Source: Ochrobactrum teleogrylli
GTDB taxonomy: Bacteria > Pseudomonadota > Alphaproteobacteria > Rhizobiales > Rhizobiaceae
Direction: 5' to 3'
DNA: 64,000 nt
Assembly (NCBI RefSeq): GCF_006376685.1
Contig: NZ_VEWL01000018.1
Span: 1-64,000 of the forward strand
In this document: positions 43,777 through 63,248 of the stretch, in pieces
Position numbering within the stretch: the first letter of the stretch is position 1
Layout: the number at the start of each line of letters is the position of its first letter
Notes under the pieces: generated by a model
Database searches by the model: none
What the model was told of the DNA's origin: nothing
What the model saw: the letters and a program-made list of their open reading frames with translations, nothing else
Program-made: the position numbers and the translations under genes

Positions 43777-43867
<91 letters not shown>

Positions 43868-44115: not shown

Positions 44116-44562
44116 ATGACTATGGATGGCCAGCTTTCGTTTATCGAAACTGAAAAAGATGCGCAGGATCTGGATGTTAAGCCCAATGCTTTCCCAGTCT
44201 CCCAAAACACCCAAAAAGAACCTTCTTCAGATAATGTCCATTCTTTCGGCAAACAGACTTATGCCGACCTTAAGGGCCGCCCATCGATCCCTGAAAGCGT
44301 TCGTCCTGAAAAACGCGATGTAGCAAAGCCTGCGAAGAAGCACGCACCAGTTCCCAACGGATATATTGCTCCTTCCACCGAAGACGAAAAATACCTGTCC
44401 GTTAAAGAAGTTGCGCACCGCTATTCGAATAGCGTCCCCACAATTTGGCGCTGGGCAAAGGAAGACGAGGCTTTTCCTAAACCTCACATCATTCGTCCGG
44501 GTACGTCGCGTTGGCGCATGTCAGACCTTTTGGCGTTCGAAAACCGTAATCTGGAGGCCTAA
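44116..44562 (+). CDS. AlpA-family helix-turn-helix protein
   Basis: 148 aa. The C-terminal 50 residues are an AlpA/MerR-like winged helix-turn-helix: KYLSVKEVAHRYSNSVPTIWRWAKE, ending in a PGTSRWRMSDLLAFE wing. The first 95 residues are polar and probably disordered. AlpA proteins act as excisionases or activators of integrase genes. It overlaps nothing but is separated from the recombinase start by a single base, with GGAGG of the next gene inside its end. It may therefore be the directionality factor or regulator of that recombinase. Confidence 0.8.
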   Translation: MTMDGQLSFIETEKDAQDLDVKPNAFPVSQNTQKEPSSDNVHSFGKQTYADLKGRPSIPESVRPEKRDVAKPAKKHAPVPNGYIAPSTEDEKYLSVKEVAHRYSNSVPTIWRWAKEDEAFPKPHIIRPGTSRWRMSDLLAFENRNLEA

Positions 44563-44563
44563 G

Positions 44564-46186
44564 ATGACCTCCAACCCAAAAAATGCCCGGAATACGCGTC
44601 GCCATAGTCATATAGCGGCAAAATCTCATTTAATTTATACGACCCGAGAAGTCTTAGGGCTTTATGGTATTACGCCGAACACCCTGACCGCATGGAAGCA
44701 ACTTGGGCTGCCAGCGACAAGAAGCGTTACTGATCTGTACCTTGGTCAGGATCTCAATAATTTTCAGAACTGGTACAAACGAAATAAGTCCCGTCCATTG
44801 GGCTTGGGTGAGGTCTTTTGCGTACACTGCAAGCAAGTGCATCTGGCTAAGGCTGATTTCTATCGGATTGAACAGAATGAGACTGATCAAGCTAGCTTGA
44901 TAGTGGAATGCCCAAATACCGGAAAAGACGCATTTAAATACGTCTCTCATAAGGAAACTGAGCATATCAAGCTCGTTACTGATCCAAAAAACAGAACTGA
45001 GAAAGACGACTATTATGTTGCTCGACTCAGCTCTAAAACTGCGCTTCCTGCGAACGTCACTGTCGAAACAAAAAATAACGGCAATATTGCCCTAAGACGC
45101 GACTTTCAAATTTATCTGAAACAAGCCGAAGGCCTTCGCGAGAAAACCGTAATCGCTACGCTTCGTCACGTCGCTCAGTTTGATGCGTTCACTAACCACC
45201 AAGCTTATTCTGCGATCACCTGCGATACAATTATTGCTTTCAAGGAACATCTGGAAGCAAAGTTATCGCTGAGCACATCCGACCAGCGCTCGCCGTCAAC
45301 CGTTGTTCACACGCTACTTGATCTCAAGAAGTTCTACGATTGGTTGGAAGCCCACGCAGACATTAAGATGGTGGCATCAGGATTGAGCAAATATTGCTCC
45401 CCGTCGCGTAATCTTCAAGCTTTGGCAGATGCACCCGGGAAGGACGGCTTTGTTCCAACGCATGAACAGGTTCTCGCCATCGTTTTGGCCATGCCACATG
45501 AGAATTTTATCCAAAGGCGAGATCGGGCTTTGCTCGCATTCTTGCTGCTCAGCGGCACGCGCATCAGTGCAGCCCTGAGCCTTCAACTGCGACACATCAA
45601 TTTGGAGAACCGCAGTATTTTCCAAAATGCGCGCATCGTCAAAACCAAGAACGCAAAAACCATGCATACAGCATGGTTTCCAGTCGGTGAGGAAATCGAG
45701 GACATTTTCACAAGCTGGGCAAAAGAACTTCACGACGGCACATCGAATAAATCAGCCCCGCTATTTCCGCGAGCGATGGATCCAATTCGTCATAAAGCTC
45801 GACCTGATGAAACACTTCCACTCATGGATCAGGGCACCGTGCGTAAGATAATCAAACGTGCATGCAATACCGTCGAGCTTCCATATTTTAACCCACACGC
45901 TTTGCGCAAAACGCTTGCGCTGATGGGAGATGACCTTTGCAAAAATACAAAACAGAGAAAAGCATGGAGCCAAAATCTCGGGCACGAGAATATGGCAACG
46001 ACAGATCAGTATTACGGAAAGCTCGATATTGCGGATCAGTTGGCTGAACTGAGCACCCTTCGCAACGCTGTGCAGAACCGAGAAGCCAATGAGCTCTTCG
46101 AATTGGTCTCACAACTCACCTCAGAACAGATCGGCCTGATAACTGGCATGGCCAGACAATGCGTTGGCAAAGGAGCATCAGCATGA
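44564..46186 (+). CDS. Tyrosine recombinase with extra N-terminal HTH and zinc-finger-like region
   Basis: 540 aa from the ATG at 44564, with GGAGG 6 bp upstream. Residues about 22-53 look like a helix-turn-helix (YTTREVLGLYGITPNTLTAWKQLGLP). C86, C89 and H93 with C116 could bind zinc. A SAM-like core-binding domain (about 175-270) precedes the catalytic domain. The active residues are R333 (GTRISAAL), H445 and R448 (HALR), H474 (LGH), and Y483 or Y484 (QYYG). It differs clearly from the P4-type integrase at the right end. The element therefore has two recombinases; this one may belong to an older or nested element, or act on another site. The family is not one I can name. Confidence 0.85.
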   Translation: MTSNPKNARNTRRHSHIAAKSHLIYTTREVLGLYGITPNTLTAWKQLGLPATRSVTDLYLGQDLNNFQNWYKRNKSRPLGLGEVFCVHCKQVHLAKADFYRIEQNETDQASLIVECPNTGKDAFKYVSHKETEHIKLVTDPKNRTEKDDYYVARLSSKTALPANVTVETKNNGNIALRRDFQIYLKQAEGLREKTVIATLRHVAQFDAFTNHQAYSAITCDTIIAFKEHLEAKLSLSTSDQRSPSTVVHTLLDLKKFYDWLEAHADIKMVASGLSKYCSPSRNLQALADAPGKDGFVPTHEQVLAIVLAMPHENFIQRRDRALLAFLLLSGTRISAALSLQLRHINLENRSIFQNARIVKTKNAKTMHTAWFPVGEEIEDIFTSWAKELHDGTSNKSAPLFPRAMDPIRHKARPDETLPLMDQGTVRKIIKRACNTVELPYFNPHALRKTLALMGDDLCKNTKQRKAWSQNLGHENMATTDQYYGKLDIADQLAELSTLRNAVQNREANELFELVSQLTSEQIGLITGMARQCVGKGASA

Positions 46187-46287
46187 TCTTCTTTCACTTC
46201 AACCGCATTTTCCTGTATGCTTTCGACCAAGCTCCTTTCCTTAATTACATGATTTGGCTGATTATATGGTCGATATCGAAGCTTTAA
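46183..46287 (+). CDS. Possible 34-aa membrane peptide coupled to the recombinase
   Basis: The ATG overlaps the recombinase stop (ATGA) and the TAA stop overlaps an ATG of the next gene (TAATG at 46287). The peptide has one hydrophobic helix near its end (NYMIWLIIWSISKL). No ribosome site is needed if translation is coupled. Its reality rests only on this overlap pattern and hydrophobicity; it may be chance. Confidence 0.35.
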   Translation: MIFFHFNRIFLYAFDQAPFLNYMIWLIIWSISKL

Positions 46288-47213
46288 TGTGCGCTTTGCC
46301 GGTTTCATCATTACAACCGCAAACCATCGCCCTCATCGAAACGGCAATCGATAATAAAGGCCGTTTCGAGCACCATTTCATCGAACTACTTGAGCCTCCA
46401 GCATTTGATAATGTGCCTTATATCCGGCCTTCCGATGCTTTACAGTCGTTGGACGCACACCATCAGCTTGCCGAAGAGCTACATCTTCGCAGATCAAAGT
46501 CCCTCAATAACGAATTGGAAAGGGCTTTCCCTGAAAGCAAATGGATGCAGTTTTTCGATCCATCGAATCCAGACGCAGCGGGTGCAATTCCCGCTGTTTC
46601 ATTTATTGACTGGTTAGAAACTAATGCGCTGGTCGAACCAGAGATTTTAAAGCTGCTTTATCGCGCGAACGATGAAGCCACAAAAGCTAAGATGTTTTCA
46701 GGCCCGGATTATTATGATGAGCCTTGGTCTCTTGTAACTCAGCCTAAGTTAACTCCGCCAAAGGCGATGATCCAGTATCTGCCGGGCCCTCCATGGATTG
46801 ACCATGAATTCAATACAGATCACAGCCGCGCTGAGAGAGCTTTCTTGGCTTGGCGCGAACAAATGCGTCCCGTCGCAAATAGGCTAGAACAACAACTCGG
46901 CGAATCCGTGTACTATTTTGCGGATTACGAGGATGAATTAGATGATGACGACGCACATCGCTTCTTGGTCTTGCACTGGTGCTGCTCTTGGCGTCCGGAA
47001 GCCGCATTCGTGCAGTATTTGATTGAAGCGAGCAAGGCATTCAACATTGAGGAGCTAAAGCTTGCTCTCATCAATCCTGCAAGCTTCAATCATCGCTTTA
47101 AAATGAATAATTCCTTAATTGGGATTGAAGCGGAAACATGCCGATATTCAGCACAGGCACATTCTAGTTCTAATGAAGGTCGGCAGAACATTTTCTACAA
47201 CATCAAATATTAA
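46266..47213 (+). CDS. Unrecognised 315-aa protein of the recombinase module
   Basis: 315 aa from ATG 46266; an in-frame ATG at 46287 overlaps the stop of the small upstream frame. It is acidic, with no membrane span or signal. It contains several aromatic-rich stretches (YYDEPWSLVTQ, PGPPWIDHEF) and a very acidic loop (YEDELDDDDAHRF) followed by LHWCCSWRPEAAFVQYLIEAS. I see no known catalytic motif. It follows the tyrosine recombinase in the same direction and may be its partner. Base use is AT-rich, like the recombinase. Confidence 0.65.
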   Translation: MVDIEALMCALPVSSLQPQTIALIETAIDNKGRFEHHFIELLEPPAFDNVPYIRPSDALQSLDAHHQLAEELHLRRSKSLNNELERAFPESKWMQFFDPSNPDAAGAIPAVSFIDWLETNALVEPEILKLLYRANDEATKAKMFSGPDYYDEPWSLVTQPKLTPPKAMIQYLPGPPWIDHEFNTDHSRAERAFLAWREQMRPVANRLEQQLGESVYYFADYEDELDDDDAHRFLVLHWCCSWRPEAAFVQYLIEASKAFNIEELKLALINPASFNHRFKMNNSLIGIEAETCRYSAQAHSSSNEGRQNIFYNIKY

Positions 47214-47297
47214 TTGGGTAAGGTCTCGTATCCGTTGGGAAAATTCTCACCAGCATCACTTGAAATCTTAGAGCCTCATCACCAAAATGGGAAAGTA

Positions 47298-47430
47298 GTC
47301 CATGGTCGCCATGGCGTCCGACGTGAAGCTGGACCTTTCCATGCGGATCGTGCGCCACGGAGACCTAGCCAAGGTGGAAGTTTCCGCTGAGGTGTCTGTA
47401 GTCGCGGCCATGCCGTGCGCAGTGGATGGG
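47298..47430. repeat. 133-bp direct repeat, copy 1
   Basis: It is identical over 133 bp to 47659-47791, with an offset of 361 bp. The repeat is GC-rich compared with the preceding genes. It lies upstream of the reverse transcriptase and within the 627-bp gap between two clear genes (47214-47840). It contains the first 43 codons of an open frame beginning MVAMASDVKLDLSMRIVRHG. Confidence 0.95.
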
Positions 47431-47565
47431 CTATGCCTGACCGTTGGCTTCGATGCTGTGAATGCTCCGTCTCCAGACGGCCTCCAAGCAGCAGATAAGC
47501 ATTCAAAGCGGCGGGCGTGGCCGGGGCAAGGCGCGCTTGACATTGCTAAAAACCTGCTAAGGTAG
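47302..47565 (+). CDS. 87-codon open frame over repeat copy 1 (doubtful)
   Basis: Begins MVAMASDVKLDLS and continues past the repeat as DGLCLTVGFDAVNAPSPDG to a TAG. An in-frame stop lies 3 bp before the ATG. Residues 1-43 are encoded by the repeat, and the following residues share TVG with the copy 2 frame. It reads like a fragment of a real secreted-protein gene rather than a full gene. Confidence 0.3.
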   Translation: MVAMASDVKLDLSMRIVRHGDLAKVEVSAEVSVVAAMPCAVDGLCLTVGFDAVNAPSPDGLQAADKHSKRRAWPGQGALDIAKNLLR

Positions 47566-47658
47566 AAAGTGACGAAATGTGTGATTTTGCCCTGAAAAAC
47601 CGGCTCATCTGAGCTGGCTTACCGGCGTACGTGCAATTTTGCTTGTGCTCGCCGCAGC

Positions 47659-47791
47659 GTCCATGGTCGCCATGGCGTCCGACGTGAAGCTGGACCTTTC
47701 CATGCGGATCGTGCGCCACGGAGACCTAGCCAAGGTGGAAGTTTCCGCTGAGGTGTCTGTAGTCGCGGCCATGCCGTGCGCAGTGGATGGG
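47659..47791. repeat. 133-bp direct repeat, copy 2
   Basis: Identical to 47298-47430. It ends 50 bp before the reverse transcriptase start. Between the copies lie a possible promoter (TTGACA at 47537, weak -10 at 47558) and a hairpin at 47600-47617 (CCGGCTCA/TGAGCTGG), so copy 2 would fall inside a leader RNA. Confidence 0.95.
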
Positions 47792-47818
47792 TATCAGTCA
47801 ACGGTCGGGATTGTATGA
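47663..47818 (+). CDS. 51-codon open frame over repeat copy 2 (doubtful)
   Basis: Shares residues 1-43 with the copy 1 frame, then reads DGYQSTVGIV to a stop 22 bp before the reverse transcriptase. Upstream in-frame codons read VRAILLVLAAAS, which with MVAMA looks like a signal peptide, but no ATG precedes them. It could be a truncated gene or part of a structured RNA. Confidence 0.3.
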   Translation: MVAMASDVKLDLSMRIVRHGDLAKVEVSAEVSVVAAMPCAVDGYQSTVGIV

Positions 47819-47840
47819 GCGGAGGACCCGAACGAAGAAC

Positions 47841-49175
47841 ATGACGAAGACACTTTTTGAAGAGGTCAGAAGCGAACAAAATATCTTTTCAGCTTGGCGG
47901 CACGTGAAGCGAAGCGCACTGACTTCAGGCAACCCTGACATTCGGGGTAAGGCCTCTGAATTTGAACATGCGCACCAACGGCACCTGAAGCGGATTATCA
48001 GCCAACTACGCTCTGGAAAGCTCTCCTTTGATCCCGTTGAGGGTATTTTGAAGGATAAGCGAAAACGCCTTGCTGCAAAAAAAGACCCACGACCTATTGC
48101 AATATCCACTATACAAAACCGTGTCGTACAGAGGGCAATTCTGCAAGTTCTACAGCCAAGGCATGCACGAGATTTGCGTGATCCAGATACGCGCTTTGAA
48201 ACCATTCGTGACGAACGGCTTGGTCAGATCAATGACGTTAACGTTTCAAAGTACGGTGTAGGAGGCCTCATTTACCCGTATGGCGGCGTCCATCCCGCAA
48301 TAAAGACAATTATGTCAGCCATGGACAACGGCGCGAAGTACTTCTTTCAATCGGATATTCGCGCCTTCTTCACGAAAATTCCCACCGACAAGGTGGTAGC
48401 GTTTGTCAGACGCGAAACCGGCGATGACGCGCTTGTTGAATTGTTCTCAAAGGCGCTTGAGGTTCACTTGGGAAACGAGGATGAGCTTATCGGCTACACT
48501 CACCTTTTCCCAAAGGGCGGTATCGGCGTTGCTCAAGGTTCTTCTCTATCGGCATTTGCTGGTAACATGTTGCTCTACGATATGGACCAACAGTTGAACC
48601 GAATGGGCGTGACGGCTGTAAGATACATTGACGACATCCTTATGGTGTCAGCCGATCAGGCAGCACTTGATGCAGCCAGGGCATATGCTGAGAAGGTTCT
48701 GACAGATTTTGGCTTCGGCCTATACTCTCCTGCAGACGGGCCTGACAAGGCGGCACAGGGAGAGTGCAGCAAGGCGATTACTTTTCTGGGCTGCACGCTT
48801 CAACCTAAACGTTGTGTACCAAGTGCCAAATCGTTAGAAAACATAAAGCGCAGCATTCGAGAGGCACTCGCATCCTCGAAGTCCGCCATCACCGAGGCAC
48901 TGCGTAAAGACAGCAACCTGAACCCCAAGCAATCGCAGAGCGCAACCTTGGATGCGCTGGGGAAACGTGTGTACGGTTGGCAAAAGTCCTTCGCGTTCTG
49001 CAATCAGCGCCAACCCTTCGAGCACTTGGACAAATTCATCTCAGTCCAGATTGAAGATTATCAATGCTTTATCGTCCGTAAAATTGCAAAAGCTGACCCT
49101 AAATCTAAGATGATGATACTCGGTATCCCTTCGACCGCTGCAATATTCGACTTAGAAAAGGCGAAGATTGCATAG
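47841..49175 (+). CDS. Stand-alone reverse transcriptase, UG/DRT-like
   Basis: 444 aa from ATG 47841. An in-frame ATG at 47787, inside repeat copy 2, would add 18 residues; GGAGG lies at 47824, rather far from the start. The RT palm/finger blocks are complete: RPIAIS near 84-89, QNRVVQRAI 92-100, the first catalytic aspartate D172 in SDIRAFF, QGSSLSAFAGN 232-242, and YIDD 262-265. LGCTL then opens the thumb region. After the RT core comes a helical region with GWQKSFAFCNQ. No maturase, endonuclease, protease or retron (NAXXH, VTG) element is seen. The QGSSLS motif is unlike the SQ motif of diversity-generating RTs. I place it among the unknown-group/defence-associated RTs, exact class undetermined. 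Confidence 0.85.
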   Translation: MTKTLFEEVRSEQNIFSAWRHVKRSALTSGNPDIRGKASEFEHAHQRHLKRIISQLRSGKLSFDPVEGILKDKRKRLAAKKDPRPIAISTIQNRVVQRAILQVLQPRHARDLRDPDTRFETIRDERLGQINDVNVSKYGVGGLIYPYGGVHPAIKTIMSAMDNGAKYFFQSDIRAFFTKIPTDKVVAFVRRETGDDALVELFSKALEVHLGNEDELIGYTHLFPKGGIGVAQGSSLSAFAGNMLLYDMDQQLNRMGVTAVRYIDDILMVSADQAALDAARAYAEKVLTDFGFGLYSPADGPDKAAQGECSKAITFLGCTLQPKRCVPSAKSLENIKRSIREALASSKSAITEALRKDSNLNPKQSQSATLDALGKRVYGWQKSFAFCNQRQPFEHLDKFISVQIEDYQCFIVRKIAKADPKSKMMILGIPSTAAIFDLEKAKIA

Positions 49176-49315: not shown

Positions 49316-52300
49316 TCAGCTATGTTTCGAGACTTCATTCAGAAGTAATTCGGCCTGTGCCAAAACAGTCTGAACTGCCTCAAGTTCCAAATCAGGCGGA
49401 TATCCAAATCGTTTAAGGATACGCTTCACTAAAATGCGCATTTTTGCTCGCGCACTTGCTTTACGTTGCCAATCAACCGTTGCCGAATTGCGCATTTGCT
49501 CAACCAATTCATGAGCAATGACCCGGAGCTGTTCGCTCCCCATTACATCAACAGCCGTCTCATTCTCGGCGAGCGCATCGTAAAAAGCTATCTCTTCCGA
49601 TGATAAGCCCAACTCTTCACCACGCGATGCGGATGCCTGCATTTCTTTGGCGAGAGCGATCAGCTCCTGAATCATTTCTACAGTAGAAATAGCATTGGCA
49701 TGGTAGCGAGCGACAGCTTCCTCCAACCGCTTAGAGAAAGCTTTAGACTGAACCACGTTTGTTTTTGATCGGCTCTTGATCTCTCCGTTCAGCAGCTTCT
49801 TAAGCGCCTCAAGCGCTAGGTTCTTCTTCTCCATCTTCTGGACATCCAACAGGAACTGATCAGACAGGACAGAAATGTCGGGTGATTGCAGCCCAGCTGC
49901 CTTCAGGATGTCTACGATCTCTGCATTGGCCACGGCCTGATCAAGAAGCTGCTCGACGGCGAGTGACTTGGCCTTGTCGGACATCTTGCCGGTGGCCGTT
50001 GTTTTCACCAGGGCAGCGCGTACAGCCTGGAAGAAGCCGACCTCATCGCGGATCTCGGCTGCGGCATCGCTAGCAGAGGCCAAGGCATAGGCTTTGCTGA
50101 GTTCAAGAACAGCATCCTGATAACGGCGATGCGCCTGTTTCTTGGCCTCTGCGCTCTCCACCTTGGCGGCCTCAACCTGTTGCCATTTCAAGATCCAGTC
50201 GATGCCGTCCGCCAGCGCCTTCAGGCGCTCCACTGGCTTTCCAGTCACGCCGAGACTGTAATTGTGCCCGGCAAACATTCCCCGGACGATCTCGTATTTC
50301 TCCAGCAGAACGGCAATGGCTTCCTCTTCATCAATCCCCGTCTTGTCTCGGTCGGACTGCGAATACTGGGCGAGCGCCTTCTTTAAGTTGGTAGCGATGC
50401 CGATATAGTCAACCACCAAGCCGCCCGGCTTCTCATTCAACACACGGTTCACCCGAGCAATGGCCTGCATCAGCCCATGACCACGCATTGGCTTGTCGAT
50501 GTACATGGTATGCATACAGGGTGCGTCAAAGCCCGTCAGCCACATATCGCGGACAATAACCAACTTCAGGGGATCATCGAGCCTACGCGCTCGCTTAGCT
50601 AGATCGTCGCGACGTTTCTTGTTGCCGATATGCGGCTGCCAGTCGAGTGGATCGGAGGCCGATCCGGTCATGACAATCTTGATCGCCCCCTTGTCGTCAT
50701 CATCTGAATGCCATTCGGGCCGGAGCGCCACGATCTCCTTGTAGAGATCGACACAGATGCGGCGGCTCATGCAGACGGTCATGGCCTTGCCGGGCAAACC
50801 CTCAATACGCTTTTCCAGATGCTCCACAAGATCGGCAGCAACCTGAGCCAATCGCTTCTTCGAACCGACCAATCGCTCGACCGTCGTCCATTGCGCCTTC
50901 TGCTTTTCCTGTTCCGTCAGGCCTTCATCTTCGAGCATGGCCTCGATCTCGGCGTCAATCTTCGGCTTCTCATCCTCGTTCAGCTCGATCCGGGCAAGAC
51001 GGCTCTCGTAGTAGATCGGAACGGTCGCCCCATCTTCCACCGCACGGCTGATATCGTAGATGTCGATATATTTGCCGAAGATGGCAGGCGTGTTCACATC
51101 CGCTGCTTCAATTGGCGTTCCTGTGAAGCCCATGAAGGAGGCGTTCGGCAGCGCCTGACGGATATAGTGGGCGTAGCCATAGCGACGTTCACCGGTCTCT
51201 CGGTTCAGCTTGGCGTCAAAGCCGTACTGGCTGCGGTGTGCTTCGTCGGCCATGACGATGACGTTATGGCGCTCGGTCAGCACCGGAAACACTTCTTCCC
51301 CCTTTTCCGGTGTGAACTTCTGCACGGTCGTGAAGATCACGCCACCGGACGCCCGGTTCAGCAGCTTGCGCAAATCGTCTCGGCTATCGGCCTGCTCCGG
51401 CGTCTGGCGGATCAGGTCCTTGCAGAGGCTGAAGGTGCCAAAAAGCTGATCATCCAGATCATTGCGATCGGTCAGCACGATCAGCGTGGGATTTTCCAGC
51501 TCGCGCGAGCGGACAATCAGGCCACCAAGAAAGGCCATCAGCAAGCTCTTGCCGGAGCCTTGGGTGTGCCAGATCACACCAATCCTGCGATCCCCTTCTG
51601 GCTTCACAGCCTCGATCGCGCTGGTGATGGCTTTGCGGGCGCCATGGAACTGGTGATAGCCGCCAAGGATTTTGAACGGCCCCTCGCCCCGATCGCCAAA
51701 CACGGTGAAGTCGCGGATAAGCGCGAGGAAGCGCTCCTTGTCGAAGACGCCCCTGAGCAGCGTATCCATCTCGTAGGGGCCGTGAGGCGTGAAATCCCCC
51801 TCTGCGCCGGTCACGGATCGCCAGGGCATGAAACGCTCTTCATCTGCCGTCAACGAGCCGATCCGCGCCAGCATCCCGTCAGACGCCACCATTACCGCAT
51901 TGGTGCGAAACAGCGAGGGGATCTGCTCCTTGTAGGTCTGAAGCTGGTTATAAGCTTCATGGATCGTGGCGTTTTCGCTGGCCGCATTTTTCAGCTCGAT
52001 GATGCCAAGCGGCAAGCCGTTGATGAAGATCATGACATCGGGCCGCCTTGTGTATTTGCCCTCGGCCACGGTGAACTGATTGGTAACCCAAAAGTCGTTA
52101 TTCTCCGGGTGATCGAAGTCGATCAGCCAAACCTTGTCGCCCTTCACCTCCCCATCGCCGATGCCGAATTCCACATCGACACCTTCCGTAATCAAGCGAT
52201 GAATACGGCGGTTTTCCTCGACCAGCGACGGCGTTTCGGTAATTGAAAGCTGGCGGATCGCCTGTTCACGGGCGTCAGCCGGAATGTTTGGGTTCAGATG

Positions 52301-52504
52301 TTCGACGGCGGCGGCAAGCACATTCGAAAGCAGCACATCGCCATAGGCCATACGGGCCGGGGCGGTCCCATCCGGGGAAATGACCTGCGAGGGATAGTAG
52401 AGGTATCCAAGGTCGTGAAAGATCGCTAGAACGACTTCTTCGACAAGGCCTTCGGAGAAACCCGAAGGTGTCATCGAAGCTTGCTGATAGAGAGTATCTT
52501 CCAT
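49316..52504 (-). CDS. hsdR: Type I restriction enzyme subunit HsdR
   Basis: 1062 aa motor and nuclease subunit. The N-terminal PD-(D/E)XK nuclease has D156 (RRPDVMIF) and E170/K172 (IELKN). The helicase has Walker A GSGKS at 316-320, DEAH at 420-423, GFTGTPIEA, and the later motif [12 protein letters not shown]-terminal helical domain contacts the methylase. It ends the five-gene hsd operon, 18 bp after the DUF262 fusion gene. It converges with the reverse transcriptase across 140 bp that show no clear terminator. Confidence 0.95.
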
Positions 52505-52522: not shown

Positions 52523-54655
52523 TTAGACGAAGCGCTCCTTGATGTAGGTGATGGCTTGGTCGCCAGTCATTTCACGCGAAGAATTGCCGTTGCGGACGTA
52601 AAATCGATCCTGCGCTGCTCCCCCCTTGTCTGCCAACTTGACATAGATCGGCTTGTTGGCCGACAGGATTTCGACGCGGCAGATTTCCTTCTCGTCAACT
52701 TCAGGAAAGGCAAGCTTGAGCTTGGTTGCAGCAAAGGCCTCGCCGAACGTATTGATAATCAGGGTCTTTAGATGGAGTTCGAACTTATCGCGATTGCCTC
52801 CGTTTAGCGATTTATAGTCATTGTCCAGACCCTTAATCTCGCCACTGTCGGCAACGCCGATCAGAAGCGTGCCACCATGAGCATTCGCGAAGGCAGCAAT
52901 CGTTTTCATAATCACGGCCTCCAGTTCCTTATTCACATTTCCAAGCTTGATGTCCCAACGCAAAGTCTGCTTGAACTCGACCTCTTCGTTCTCACCTTCG
53001 ATGATCATATCCTCGAGCGAGACTTTTTCTGCAACTGCATGGGTCTCAGCCAACCCCTCGAGCCATAAGTTCAGGCTTTCGGCAAGCATCTTGCGGCGGG
53101 TCTTCAGGAAGAGCTCGTAATTGTCTACTTGCCAAAGTTCCTTGTCTTCAGGGATGAGCTGCAGGCCAAGCGCGTTTGGCTGATTCTGTGCAACGCCCAA
53201 GAGATAGCCCTCTGTTTCCTTCGCACCCTTGGATCTGTTGGCAGTCTGAGTAAGAATTGCACGGTTTGTCAGTTCCTGCGCTAGTTGATAGCGAAGCCTG
53301 TTCTCCTGACCATATCCAGCTGCCTTCAAGTTTGCGAAAGCGAAAATATGATCGTATTCTAGCTTGTATTTCTCGCCCATCGGTTGGTGAATGGAGACGC
53401 CTGTCGTGAGGCACTTTGCACCCCGGCTTTTCAGATGCCAGCGCAACAAGCCGAACAAAGGGTTTTGGACCGCACTGCCAACAAATTCATCAGGGGTGAT
53501 CGCGATGTTGCCGCCACGATCCTCACGGATTACATCCAGCAGCCGATCGAATGGCATTTCTGATGTCGCGACAATCTTGAGATCGTGATCAAGCTTCTGT
53601 GGAAGCTGACTGACGTAGCGTCGGCGAACCTGAGAATAGTAAAACCACTTCACAACCTTCTGGAGGTCGTTGTGGCTAAGATTGCAGTTCATCCAGTAGC
53701 AGTATGCGACGATTGGAATGACTGCATAAATCGAGTTGATCTCGTCGGTATGGTCAACGAACGCATGGCCACGCAACAGGTTCGCCACATAGTCCAGAAC
53801 CTTTTCATCGAGCGCCTTCCAGACATCTCGTATCGCATCGTTATTGTCGACCGAGTGCAGTTTACGCATATCGGAGCCGCCCTGATGCAGAATGGCCAGC
53901 AACGCGTAGACGATGAAATCCAGCTTGAAGATGAAGCCGTTCCTCCTCAGCGCGTCGAGCTTCTTTTTGAAGGCCTCGCGAGCCTGAGGCCAGTATCCGG
54001 AGATTTGAGCCAACGCGAGTTCGGCGTCCGTCAACGCCACGCCGCCAGCATTGACGATATAGAAGATATCAATCGCTTCGCGCAGTGAAGCCTTAATTGG
54101 GATGTTTTGCTCTGGAAAATCCCGATCTAATACCGCCTGAATGGTCTGAAAGTGTTGGGCAATCTTCTTTCTGTCATCGCGGCTCAGTTCTCTACCAGAT
54201 GAAAGTAGACGGTCCTCAACTTCAAAAGGAAGTACCTTTTTCCGAAATATCTCCGTGATGGCCAGCCAACGCGGGTCAGTCTCCATCCTCTTGTTGTAAT
54301 ACTCAATCTCCAGTGTTTCGATATTTACCTGCAGTCCCCGCGTATCTTCTGTGATCTCTTCGAGAGTGTAGTAAGGCGGCAGCTCGCCGCGGATCAGCAT
54401 GTACAGCGTCGTGACGCGCTGCTGGCCATCGAGCAGAATCTTGATCGCCCCCTGGAGTGGATCATAAACGTGCGCACCCTTCAACTCAGGCGGCTGGTTG
54501 GTATCCCAGGTGAGGATGGTGCCTGTCGGATAGCCCTTGATCATCGAGTCGATCAGCAGCTTAGCATCCTTCTTCTTCCACACATATTCGCGCTGGAAGG
54601 CCGGCACGAAAAGCTGTCGTTCGTCGATCTTTTCCAGAATGCTGCTGATTTTCAT
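52523..54655 (-). CDS. DUF262-HNH-AlbA_2 fusion protein (GmrSD-like plus Schlafen-type domain)
   Basis: 710 aa with three parts. Residues about 1-230 are DUF262 (ParB/Srx-type nucleotide-binding fold), with RQLFVPAFQREYVW and LDGQQRVTTLY at 75-84, as in GmrS restriction proteins. About 415-490 resembles the DUF1524 HNH nuclease half (LEYDHIFAFANL, then ELTNRAILTQTANRSKG). About 548-710 is an AlbA_2 (Schlafen) domain (VEFKQTLRWD, ANAHGGTLLIGVADSGEIKGL, DRFYVRNGNSSREM). DUF262-DUF1524 proteins cut modified phage DNA. It lies inside the hsd operon, probably as an additional anti-phage effector. Confidence 0.88.
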   Translation of the reverse strand: MKISSILEKIDERQLFVPAFQREYVWKKKDAKLLIDSMIKGYPTGTILTWDTNQPPELKGAHVYDPLQGAIKILLDGQQRVTTLYMLIRGELPPYYTLEEITEDTRGLQVNIETLEIEYYNKRMETDPRWLAITEIFRKKVLPFEVEDRLLSSGRELSRDDRKKIAQHFQTIQAVLDRDFPEQNIPIKASLREAIDIFYIVNAGGVALTDAELALAQISGYWPQAREAFKKKLDALRRNGFIFKLDFIVYALLAILHQGGSDMRKLHSVDNNDAIRDVWKALDEKVLDYVANLLRGHAFVDHTDEINSIYAVIPIVAYCYWMNCNLSHNDLQKVVKWFYYSQVRRRYVSQLPQKLDHDLKIVATSEMPFDRLLDVIREDRGGNIAITPDEFVGSAVQNPLFGLLRWHLKSRGAKCLTTGVSIHQPMGEKYKLEYDHIFAFANLKAAGYGQENRLRYQLAQELTNRAILTQTANRSKGAKETEGYLLGVAQNQPNALGLQLIPEDKELWQVDNYELFLKTRRKMLAESLNLWLEGLAETHAVAEKVSLEDMIIEGENEEVEFKQTLRWDIKLGNVNKELEAVIMKTIAAFANAHGGTLLIGVADSGEIKGLDNDYKSLNGGNRDKFELHLKTLIINTFGEAFAATKLKLAFPEVDEKEICRVEILSANKPIYVKLADKGGAAQDRFYVRNGNSSREMTGDQAITYIKERFV

Positions 54656-54700: not shown

Positions 54701-55444
54701 TCACAGATTTCGACAATCCAATGTCACCAATCCTATCGGGCCGTATTCGCCATCTGCCTCTCGAGTGGGCTGTGAGAAGTATTCGTCGGTCGGAACGATG
54801 TAGGTGGGAATCTTTCCGTCACGCATTTGCGTTTGACCATTAAGTTTTCCCACACTTGGAAAGAACAGACGTCTTCCTTGTTGGGAACATACTAGGAAAT
54901 GCCAAGGCACACATCGCGCTTCCAACGAAGCAATATCTTGATAGCCGTGTCTCTTGATTCTGCGGGCATCGCCAATCAAGCATCCCACCTCGTAACGGGA
55001 CGACATGACTGACTTGCGCCAACGCGATTTTGCGCTTTCCTCTGAGTAAAAACATAGGATTGGCAGCAGTCGATCACGCTTGGCTTCTGCGATCAGCATG
55101 TCGATCTGCGGGTGCGGTGCCGACTTCGCCTTATAGGTAAAAAGCCCTGGGAACTGCAGGGTATTTTTAGGCAGGCGTTTTGCCTGTACCCGCATCTTCA
55201 GCGTATATTTTAGGCCTATCAGGTGCCATTCCCAATCAGCGCCGTTGCGTGCCTCTTGTCGCTTTGTATAAGTTCTGATGTTCACTTCTGTGGAGTGGCG
55301 ACGCCATATCTCCAGCAACGTGCTCTCCGTGATGGTTTCTTCGCTGTAAGAAATTGCCGACCCATACGCCAGATGCAGATTTCTGGAAACATCATCCCCG
55401 AGCTCCTGAAAGGTTCTGCAAAGAGATTTACCAGAGGACTTCAA
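54701..55444 (-). CDS. DUF6615-like protein with PD-(D/E)XK-type motif
   Basis: 247 aa. I recognise it as similar to DUF6615. The order E35/E36 (YSEETITE), G-A-D-W-E-W at 68-73 and Q-A-K at 87-89 (MRVQAKRL) fits the E...D...QxK pattern of PD-(D/E)XK nucleases. Strand-helix units around it also fit (PQIDMLIAEAKRDRLLPILCFYS). Its start overlaps the hsdS stop (ATGA, 55441-55444), so it is translationally coupled to hsdS. Nuclease activity is inference. It could modify or back up restriction. Confidence 0.7.
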   Translation of the reverse strand: MKSSGKSLCRTFQELGDDVSRNLHLAYGSAISYSEETITESTLLEIWRRHSTEVNIRTYTKRQEARNGADWEWHLIGLKYTLKMRVQAKRLPKNTLQFPGLFTYKAKSAPHPQIDMLIAEAKRDRLLPILCFYSEESAKSRWRKSVMSSRYEVGCLIGDARRIKRHGYQDIASLEARCVPWHFLVCSQQGRRLFFPSVGKLNGQTQMRDGKIPTYIVPTDEYFSQPTREADGEYGPIGLVTLDCRNL

Positions 55445-58606: not shown

Positions 58607-59815
58607 TTATTTCACGCTCAGCACAAATTTTTGCCAAGCATTCATCATCTCACGTCTCTTATCTAGCAAATCTGTACGGTGATAAGCAGCTTCCGTTGCG
58701 CTGCCTATCGTATGCGCCAAAGCGCGCTCCGCAACATCACGAGGATAACCACTTTCGGAAGCCCAGTCTCGGAAGGTCGATCTAAATCCATGAGCAGTCG
58801 CTATTCGCTTCGGTGCATCGCTTTCAACTTCCTGATCGCGCAAAAACTTAGTTAAAATCATATCGCTATATGGCGTACCCTTGCGCGATGCGAAGACCAA
58901 TGAATTGTTCGATAATGCATTTTGCTGTTTATATCGGAGTATTTCTACGACACGAGACGTCAAAGGCACACGATGAGCGACCTTCGCTTTCATTCGTGAC
59001 GCAGGGATAGTCCATATCGATTTATCAAAATCGACCTCATCCCACATCATCAATCGGATTTCGCCTGAACGCGTAGCAGTCAAAATGAGGATCTCCAGCA
59101 TCAACTTTGTGTCGCTGACGTTACCCCGAGCAATCTTATCAGCGTAAATCGCTGGTAATGATCGCCATGATACGGCTGGGTGGTGATCCACGCGATGACG
59201 CTTGCTAGGCTGCTGGGGAAGAAGCTGTTCAACCACACCAACGGGACTTGCCACAATAAATCCATGGGCAGCACACCACTGCATAACTTTATCGCAACGC
59301 TGTTTTACACGTGAGGCCGTTTCAGGCTTTTCAAGCCATATAGGTCGTAGACAATCAGCAAAATGACTTACCGTAATCTCATCAACCTTTTTACTGCCTA
59401 TCTTTGGAAAGACGTATTCCACCAAGGTGTTTATCCATTGATCAATATGCTTTTGGTTTCGAAAGCCGGGGGAAGCTTGCGAATGAACTATTCGCGCTGC
59501 GCTCTCGAATGTCGGCATATCGCTCAGAACACGTTTCTGCTCATCTTCACGTTTACGCTCTTCAAGCGGATCTTTACCGACTTCGACCATCTGTCGTGCA
59601 ATCCACGCAAGGTCCCTTGCAGCCTTGATAGAAACCGTCGGGTAACTGCCAAGTCCCATATCACGGCGCTTTCGCGTTTCAGGCGATGTAAAGCGAAAGA
59701 TCCATTTGCCAGCGCCAATATTAGCTGAGGGTATCAGATAAAGACCTTTTACCGAAGTGTCGCATATCGGCTTATCGGTTGGCTTTATTTTTCTCGCTTT
59801 TGCATCGCTGATCAT
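58607..59815 (-). CDS. P4-type tyrosine integrase of the island
   Basis: 402 aa. The N-terminal arm-binding DUF4102 domain (about 1-90, MGLGSYPTVSIKAARDLA) and core-binding domain precede the catalytic domain. Catalytic residues are R249 (ATRSGEIR), H342 and R345 (HGFRSTFRDW), H368 (LAH) and Y378. Members insert elements in tRNA genes, matching the tRNA-Ser site here. It starts 33 bp inside the paired arm-type boxes at 59848-59869 and reads away from attR. Confidence 0.95.
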   Translation of the reverse strand: MISDAKARKIKPTDKPICDTSVKGLYLIPSANIGAGKWIFRFTSPETRKRRDMGLGSYPTVSIKAARDLAWIARQMVEVGKDPLEERKREDEQKRVLSDMPTFESAARIVHSQASPGFRNQKHIDQWINTLVEYVFPKIGSKKVDEITVSHFADCLRPIWLEKPETASRVKQRCDKVMQWCAAHGFIVASPVGVVEQLLPQQPSKRHRVDHHPAVSWRSLPAIYADKIARGNVSDTKLMLEILILTATRSGEIRLMMWDEVDFDKSIWTIPASRMKAKVAHRVPLTSRVVEILRYKQQNALSNNSLVFASRKGTPYSDMILTKFLRDQEVESDAPKRIATAHGFRSTFRDWASESGYPRDVAERALAHTIGSATEAAYHRTDLLDKRREMMNAWQKFVLSVK

Positions 59816-63173: not shown

Positions 63174-63248
63174 GCGGGTGTAGCTCAGGGGTAGAGCACA
63201 ACCTTGCCAAGGTTGGGGTCGAGGGTTCGAATCCCTTCGCCCGCTCCA
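63174..63248 (+). tRNA. tRNA-Gly (anticodon GCC)
   Basis: 75 nt with acceptor GCGGGTG/CGCCCGC, D arm, anticodon stem ACCTT-GCC-AAGGT, T loop GTTCGAATC and encoded CCA. The anticodon GCC reads GGC and GGU. A terminator hairpin follows at 63272. Confidence 0.97.

Follow-up and report, generated by a model that had tools for sequence, protein, structure and literature searches.

A G2L4-type reverse transcriptase preceded by a conserved, concertedly evolving repeat pair that may encode a circularly permuted small gene

The locus

The window analysed here is a 64,000-nucleotide (nt) stretch of Ochrobactrum teleogrylli DNA (assembly GCF_006376685.1, contig NZ_VEWL01000018.1, positions 1–64,000, forward strand), within which the locus under study occupies positions 47298–49175. 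It comprises a gene for a reverse transcriptase (RT) and, directly upstream, two copies (R1 and R2) of a 133-nt repeat (R), which are separated by a spacer (I):

47298..47430, + strand: R1, first 133-nt repeat copy, identical to R2 and conserved with the RT
47431..47658, + strand: I, 228-nt spacer, conserved among two-copy loci
47659..47791, + strand: R2, second 133-nt repeat copy, identical to R1
47841..49175, + strand: reverse transcriptase of 444 amino acids, YIDD motif, G2L4 type (from the open frame, Pfam, sequence and structure matches, and a tree)

R1 and R2 share 100% identity over 133 nt and start 361 nt apart, as the original prediction, made from the sequence alone, had described; its statement that the second copy ends some 50 bp ahead of the RT likewise holds, the distance being 49 nt when counted from the likely start, ATG 47841 (the alternative listed start, 47787, is an in-frame ATG within R2). 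A perfect match of 133 bases is far beyond chance, and because the same layout recurs in independent assemblies, complete plasmid records included, both chance and an assembly duplicate are rejected. Searches that scored best candidates only reported no further copy of R in the host genome.

Conservation and concerted evolution of the repeat pair

Relatives were collected with a profile built from three RTs, which returned 25 genome loci and two viral contigs, and further searches added more; loci are cited by handle (L and a number) where they need to be told apart. Entries on the same contig were left out (L003 = L052, L061 = L059, L067 = L060, L068 = L045 and, by name, L071 = the L059 contig). 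The alphaproteobacterial set comprises 31 loci including the window and was not thinned for near-identity. A homologue search for the repeat found R, whole or partial, ahead of the RT at all 31: two or three copies are present in 19, a single copy in eight (a count to be read in the knowledge that short-read assemblies can collapse such repeats), and the upstream region is lost to a contig end in four. Throughout the 19 multi-copy loci, R2 ends 47–58 nt ahead of the RT and the spacing is 352–362 nt; L036 holds three copies. At the Ensifer locus L052 the contig breaks within R, and the other copy sits at the end of another contig.

The two copies of one locus differ at 0–3 of 133 positions (mean 0.5%; 16 alphaproteobacterial loci); between loci, R2 differs by a mean of 9.7% (15 loci, 105 pairs) and spacer I by a mean of 15%. 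Nearly all between-locus differences in R2 (1297 of 1349) occur in both copies. These sequence comparisons show R1 and R2 evolving in concert, repeatedly homogenised while both are kept. The perfect identity had earlier been taken as a sign of recent duplication, which is not supported, given the age of the paired layout and the joint evolution of its copies; the accompanying suggestion that the RT itself copies the repeat is possible.

Interrupted RT frames are commoner where a single R is found—five of nine single-R loci versus two of 30 two-copy loci (p = 0.004, Fisher test, applied post hoc and without correction for kinship)—and the broken RTs include L055, whose frame stops at residue 231, and L089. 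The single R of L054 is shortened: its 3′ part lacks about 31 nt, and the gap is flanked by short identical sequences, the pattern that a microhomology deletion would leave. R was also considered as a dispersed mobile repeat, and this was rejected, the only traces being short matches in three genomes and degenerate solo pieces in two Rhizobium plasmids. The solo pieces (L033, 4001–4116; L034, 4001–4079), with no RT annotated adjacent, are probably remnants of lost loci.

Identity of the reverse transcriptase

The RT frame is intact and holds the complete catalytic motifs originally listed, D172, QGSSLS and YIDD (numbered from ATG 47841; YIDD occupies residues 262–265). A Pfam scan of the window RT returned RVT_1, and none of the NCBIfam RT families reached its cutoff, the group II intron family scoring 119.5 against 300. 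The top solved relative by sequence is the G2L4 RT (E = 3.5e-52 over residues 22–447, numbered from 47787), and YIDD is named as distinctive for G2L4 in the accessible text of PMC4244168. The AlphaFold model of the window RT has a mean predicted local distance difference test (pLDDT) score of 89.8; of its 1174 Foldseek matches, the first four are G2L4 chains (template modelling score 0.75–0.81 by query length), followed by group II intron RTs. A quick tree of 52 RTs (L089 was left out as too short, and L060 was also left out) places the window RT in one 29-row clade (Shimodaira–Hasegawa-like approximate likelihood ratio test, SH-aLRT, 99) together with L062, an RT on a Pseudomonas plasmid that is a full-length relative of the solved G2L4 enzyme (E = 2e-119). 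No Rfam match in the window points to a group II intron RNA around the RT.

An undescribed RT family, as first proposed, is therefore not supported, because by sequence, tree and structure the RT groups with G2L4. The RT3a plug of G2L4 carries conserved arginines, R190 and R191 (PMC12337344, available text); in the alphaproteobacterial rows this insertion is partly present, with a two-residue gap at R190/R191. Because the arginine pair is absent, the window RT is filed, on its sequence, as a diverged branch of G2L4 rather than a typical member. The original prediction had held that placement in a family known to act alone would speak against a repeat partner. The same source, in the portion available, describes G2L4 as a stand-alone DNA-repair enzyme and reports that Pseudomonas G2L4 acts in microhomology end joining (PMC12337344), yet those RTs also carry repeats.

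The same layout with unrelated repeats

The Pseudomonas relative L062 is preceded by a 137-nt pair, 99% identical, with a spacing of 376 nt and an end 63 nt ahead of the RT; this repeat is unlike the window R by eye, and a search with the window R gave no match to it. A search of 398 Pseudomonadaceae genomes yielded four G2L4 RTs, of which L073, L074 and L076 are paired and L075 has a single copy. A viral contig found with a mixed profile (L072) also carries a repeat pair ahead of its RT, and viral-contig searches with the L006 RT and with the single L062 protein gave no match. Five of six Pseudomonas-type G2L4 RTs are hence preceded by a pair whose R is unrelated in sequence. A search of 398 Pseudomonadota genomes gave three matches besides the window (L064, L065 and L066), all paired; in L066 the RT motif is YVDD and the 136-nt pair is unrelated in sequence.

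Nineteen further RT loci from the same bacterial family served as a control; 17 of them lack a repeat of at least 60 nt (three of these have less than 600 nt upstream). Control L008 has imperfect repeats (74–75%, 102–252 nt) ahead of another RT. Control L006, a YADD RT, has an exact 119-nt pair; its relatives L087, L090, L089 and L084 are paired, and L088, L085 and L086 have no pair upstream. A second RT group with the same geometry is thus represented by five loci (L006, L084, L087, L089 and L090). The length of R across groups is 116–142 nt.

Mapped onto the tree, pairs occur in 23 of the 29 rows of the G2L4 clade, the others being single (four) or cut (two), and in four of the six rows of the YADD group, which has weak support (SH-aLRT 87) and includes a long-branch row, L019. 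Among the remaining 17 rows, an exact pair is present in none of the 12 tested; the label 'no repeat' on rows L078–L082 is a default.

Coding pattern of the repeat and spacer

Two open frames connect the repeat copies with the spacer:

47302..47565, + strand: open frame of 87 amino acids that continues from R1 into I (its first part), proposed middle and C-terminal part (from the absence of stops in the first part of I, and pN/pS)
47585..47818, + strand: open frame that enters R2 from the end of I, a hydrophobic stretch followed by R, proposed N-terminal and middle part (from stops, pN/pS and hydropathy)

The repeat had initially been taken as non-coding; its substitution pattern says that it is at least partly coding. 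The frame of R that begins at base 5 has a ratio of non-synonymous to synonymous change (pN/pS) of 0.41 and no stops in 688 codons (16 loci), the other two frames reaching 1.98 and 1.37 with 29 and 15 stops. The corresponding values are 0.54–0.55 versus 1.04–1.37 in other frames for seven more-diverged alphaproteobacterial loci and 0.61–0.62 versus 1.03–1.45 for five Pseudomonas-type loci; in the Pseudomonas-type set, the R2 stretch has three stops in 225 codons, placed near its 3′ edge by the alignment. Protein-like constraint on one frame of R is present, therefore, in two sequence-unrelated groups, and on this evidence R looks at least partly coding.

The frame also runs open into the spacer. 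In the first part of I, the R1 frame has no stops in 306 codons (seven alphaproteobacterial loci) versus 22 and 24 in the other frames, and none in 225 codons (Pseudomonas type) versus 10 and 7. From the end of I into R2, there are no stops in 132 codons (alphaproteobacteria) or 100 codons (Pseudomonas type), and the hydrophobic stretch ahead of R2 has a peak hydropathy of 1.15–2.73 at 24 loci and 0.34–0.96 at five Pseudomonas-type loci, with L035 unscored. Since the R frame is open into I on both sides, the locus resembles a circularly permuted small gene: on the simplest reading of the sequences, the start of the gene would be the end of I, its middle R, and its end the first part of I. The arrangement suggests that such a gene would be whole only when R-I units form a circle or a tandem array.

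L036, with its three copies, natively holds the whole frame uninterrupted (112 residues). This copy of the frame has no Pfam, PHROG, plasmid or phage match, and its AlphaFold model (pLDDT 47) gives no usable fold. Of the 25 two-copy loci in the G2L4 clade, 22 have a spacing between copies of 1 mod 3; L066 departs from this, as do L035, through its insertion, and L076, whose spacer contains an internal duplication of some 109 nt. The unit length is divisible by three at L006, L087, L090 and L089, where a single frame runs without a stop across R1-I-R2, a state reached by 13, 3, 1 and 0 of 2000 shuffles, respectively. Two separate open frames arising from R1 and R2 are unlikely at Pseudomonas-type loci because R1 there offers no ATG.

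Promoter-like sites and hairpins

Further elements lie around and within the repeat unit:

47260..47288, + strand: P1, promoter-like TTGAAA-17-CAAAAT ending 9 nt before R1 (putative, from its conserved place)
47537..47563, + strand: P2, promoter-like TTGACA-15-TAAGGT within I (putative, from its conserved place)
47577..47612, + strand: short leader open frame of 11 codons plus stop, with AAAAAC at 47595–47600 (conserved; putative function)
47600..47617, + strand: hairpin CCGGCTC-ATCT-GAGCTGG in I (aligned between loci; pairing kept in L049 through a one-sided change)
47805..47831, + strand: hairpin TCGGG/CCCGA after R2 with GGAGG (47821–47825) in its loop (possible RT landing site)

P1 is weak alone because 26 of 200 shuffles equal or better it; its place ahead of R1 is kept in the alignment, also ahead of a single R. 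The promoter and hairpin that the original prediction placed between the copies could both be located (47537–47563 and 47600–47617), and the place of the promoter is conserved, but P2 by itself does not stand out from shuffled sequence, 38 of 200 shuffles being as good. The leader RNA carrying R2 that was proposed with them is plausible.

The frame of R2 is −1 relative to the 11-codon leader frame, and the hairpin in I directly follows AAAAAC. A motif common to L062, L072–L074, L076 and L066, ATGCAAAAACGTGCC, occurs at the place matching the leader frame, AAAAAC and hairpin, and the AAAAAC/ATGCAAAAACGTGCC site may serve in frameshifting or as an RNA motif. In L076 (reverse strand), the internal duplication of the spacer includes a P2-like stretch as well as the ATGCAAAAACGTGCC motif and brings the spacing to 485 nt. 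A small hairpin at positions 47467–47480 of the spacer keeps its stem, CCGTC/GACGG, between loci, and its loop, unlike the rest of I, varies between most of them.

The hairpin between R2 and the RT is clear at L062, L084, L006 and L089, where 2, 2, 4 and 9 of 300 shuffles match it; in the window 61 of 300 do so, and it is weak there as in most of the other alphaproteobacterial loci tested. For group II intron RTs, the binding site is a hairpin in their own start region; by analogy, the hairpin after R2 is a possible landing site for the RT.

Genomic surroundings

The neighbourhood, described earlier as a defence-type island, is island-like, with tyrosine integrases at 44366–46186 and 58607–59815, a type I restriction subunit R (49316–52504) and a protein with GmrSD-N and AlbA_2 domains (52523–54655; top PADLOC match HEC-05). 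A DUF6615 protein (54701–55444) adjoins the type I restriction genes, and one integrase lies between the RT region and each of tRNA-Ser (43777–43866) and tRNA-Gly (63174–63248). The 319-amino-acid frame directly ahead of the repeats (46254–47213) has no match in Pfam, NCBIfam or PADLOC. Conserved neighbour genes were sought among 645 frames of at least 100 amino acids at 23 loci and were rejected as a feature of the locus: five clusters reach three loci, three of them repeat-derived and the remaining two present at three loci each only.

Proposed mechanism and alternatives

The reading put forward here, tentatively and with a rough probability of 0.45, is that a G2L4-type RT is encoded with its own template in the order R1-I-R2-RT, the R-I unit being a circularly permuted small gene that is joined through reverse transcription. 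The layout, its conservation, the concerted evolution and the conserved open frame on both sides of R are read directly from the aligned loci; the leader RNA, the switch or joining step, the second strand, expression and a role in phage defence are what we infer. A leader RNA would start at R1 and extend to the RT start, and the RT would recognise it near the hairpin after R2, copying R2-I-R1 from R2 up to the 5′ end of the RNA at R1. With R at both ends, the complementary DNA (cDNA) could switch to another R2 or close on itself; the product, (R-I)n, would, once double-stranded, carry P2 followed by the restored whole frame, and hence a small membrane-anchored or exported protein would be made only during active reverse transcription, with phage infection or DNA damage as the probable trigger. 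A need for the R copies to stay alike for template switching would explain their concerted evolution.

A wider proposal, which is rather doubtful, is that G2L4 RTs (including the relatives of the studied Pseudomonas enzyme) and the YADD group are gene-assembly machines with a terminally redundant R-I-R template, DNA repair being secondary or borrowed. Strand transfer through R would then turn a permuted, silent gene into a transcribed one; since template and product differ completely between subgroups, the principle rather than the protein would be conserved.

Several observations weigh against assembly of the gene by reverse transcription. The evidence is DNA sequence, and recombination by RecA could fuse one R with the other with no part played by the RT. 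Single-R loci, among them L040, L046, L048 and L075, which have an open RT, speak against a strict need for the pair. Not every R copy is open: the frame of R meets a TAG in L051, and R1 of L035 contains a one-base insertion. The spacer parts of the frame are less constrained than R: pN/pS is weak in both (0.64–0.82), that of one other frame is about as low in the first part of I, and one other frame is likewise stop-free at the end of I. The N-terminal part lacks an opening ATG in the alphaproteobacterial loci, the window included, where none precedes R2. P1 and P2, conserved in place between loci, are singly non-significant. Finally, the window unit of 361 nt is not divisible by three, and a concatemer would therefore shift frame at every round, unlike that of the defence-associated reverse transcriptase (DRT) system DRT2.

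The foremost alternative, fairly unlikely in our estimate, is a switch at the DNA level, with recombination or end joining between R1 and R2 producing R-I circles, deletions and arrays by which the small gene is restored or removed, and with the RT either joining DNA ends or being merely a downstream gene. One, two and three R copies are found in nature, L036 is in effect a chromosomal R-I array, repeated recombination yields concerted evolution, and Pseudomonas G2L4 is reported in microhomology end joining (PMC12337344, available text). What a DNA-level switch leaves unexplained is why the pair always precedes this type of RT—the 12 other RT tree rows tested are without an exact pair—and why R1 starts 9 nt past a promoter-like site.

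R might instead be a structured RNA partner of the RT, a template or cofactor comparable to those of DRT9 and DRT10, with the two copies giving two transcripts and the frames being a by-product or second use; this is unlikely. RNAalifold predicts a closed structure for R in which an outer helix joins both ends, and 6 of 41 pairs change on both sides versus 1.0 in shuffles (0 of 500), a count inflated by kinship. The length range of R lies near the 137-nt DRT10 RNA (PMC12632851, accessible text). A closed three-arm shape is common to the window (W), L059, L064, L073 and L066, but it also appears in 14–29 of 300 shuffles each and is missing from L049 and L062. Single-sequence stability is high in L059 (z = −3.69) but ordinary in the window (z = −1.38), no named RNA family matched R above the Rfam threshold, and the frame-specific constraint and stop-free flanks are unexpected for an RNA.

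Least probable is that the RT acts alone in DNA repair, with R2 as its 5′ leader or leader peptide and R1 as a duplicate under gene conversion, as the stand-alone description of G2L4 (PMC12337344, available text) and the open RTs retained at L040, L046, L048 and L075 might imply, since the two copies are retained across deeply diverged loci whose R sequences are unrelated, the open frame continues out of R1 into I as well, and broken RTs are, in the post hoc comparison above, commoner with one R.

Comparison with known systems

The closest described relative is the G2L4 RT of Pseudomonas aeruginosa (PDB 9d4s and 9d5x), which the window RT resembles in its sequence match (E = 3.5e-52), its top four Foldseek matches, its YIDD motif and its place in one tree clade; the Pseudomonas relatives of that enzyme also have paired repeats. 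It differs in sharing only some 30% identity with the window RT, which has no counterpart of the two RT3a plug arginines. Neither repeats nor a template RNA are described for the P. aeruginosa enzyme in the available text of PMC12337344 and PMC13015716 (the sought terms are absent from the latter). The accessible text of the literature found, which includes PMC12337344, PMC13015716, PMC12632851, PMC8934634, PMC4244168 and PMC12039810 and has key subscription papers outside its scope, makes no mention of repeats before G2L4 RTs. The RT is thus of a known family, and its repeat partner was apparently unnoticed.

This bears on how the family is understood: the G2L4 RT is the standard example of a domesticated RT in bacterial DNA repair, its gene being treated as free-standing, and a conserved, concertedly evolving pair with a hidden frame would supply it with a native substrate as well as a product that can be tested. 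If the RT does restore the gene, gene-making by reverse transcription of a permuted template arose outside the DRT2 lineage, on sequence-unrelated templates. Should ordinary recombination do the joining, an unnoticed partner still alters the reading of deletion and expression experiments with the G2L4 RT.

Among other RT systems, the retron RT family is rejected, the best retron model scoring 42.7 bits with the window RT against a cutoff of 235. Diversity-generating retroelements have two near-identical repeats beside an RT, one of them within a reading frame, and show adenine-directed variation; here, by contrast, R1 and R2 are identical in the window, differ at no more than 3 of 133 positions across the 16 loci compared, and show no adenine-directed variation. 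In retroviruses and long terminal repeat elements, terminally redundant R regions serve strand transfer, and R at both ends of the unit, with R1 just past a promoter-like site, could serve likewise; no integrase or gag adjoins the locus, and the likeness is a resemblance only.

DRT10 (UG17) is the best-scoring named DRT model for the window RT (123.7 bits) and has an upstream RNA of about the size of R (PMC12632851, accessible text), but a general RT model outscores UG17 on the window RT. A SLATT partner, a feature of DRT10, is absent among the larger window neighbours scanned, and there is no conserved partner of at least 100 amino acids in 23 loci, smaller frames being unscanned.

In DRT2 (neo), according to the available text of PMC12039810, the RT copies a template RNA repeatedly, and the resulting repeats reconstitute a promoter and an open frame that had been hidden by permutation. 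The window locus would share with it a permuted gene beside the RT that becomes whole only after joining of repeat units. It differs from DRT2 in its RT, which scores 35.5 bits against a Drt2 model cutoff of 390, and in having R twice in the genome and P2 whole within I; the DRT2 unit is also a multiple of three with an endless frame, which the 361-nt window unit is not and which is found only in L006, L087, L090 and L089. In our reading, by analogy, the locus would work like DRT2 yet not be a member of it.

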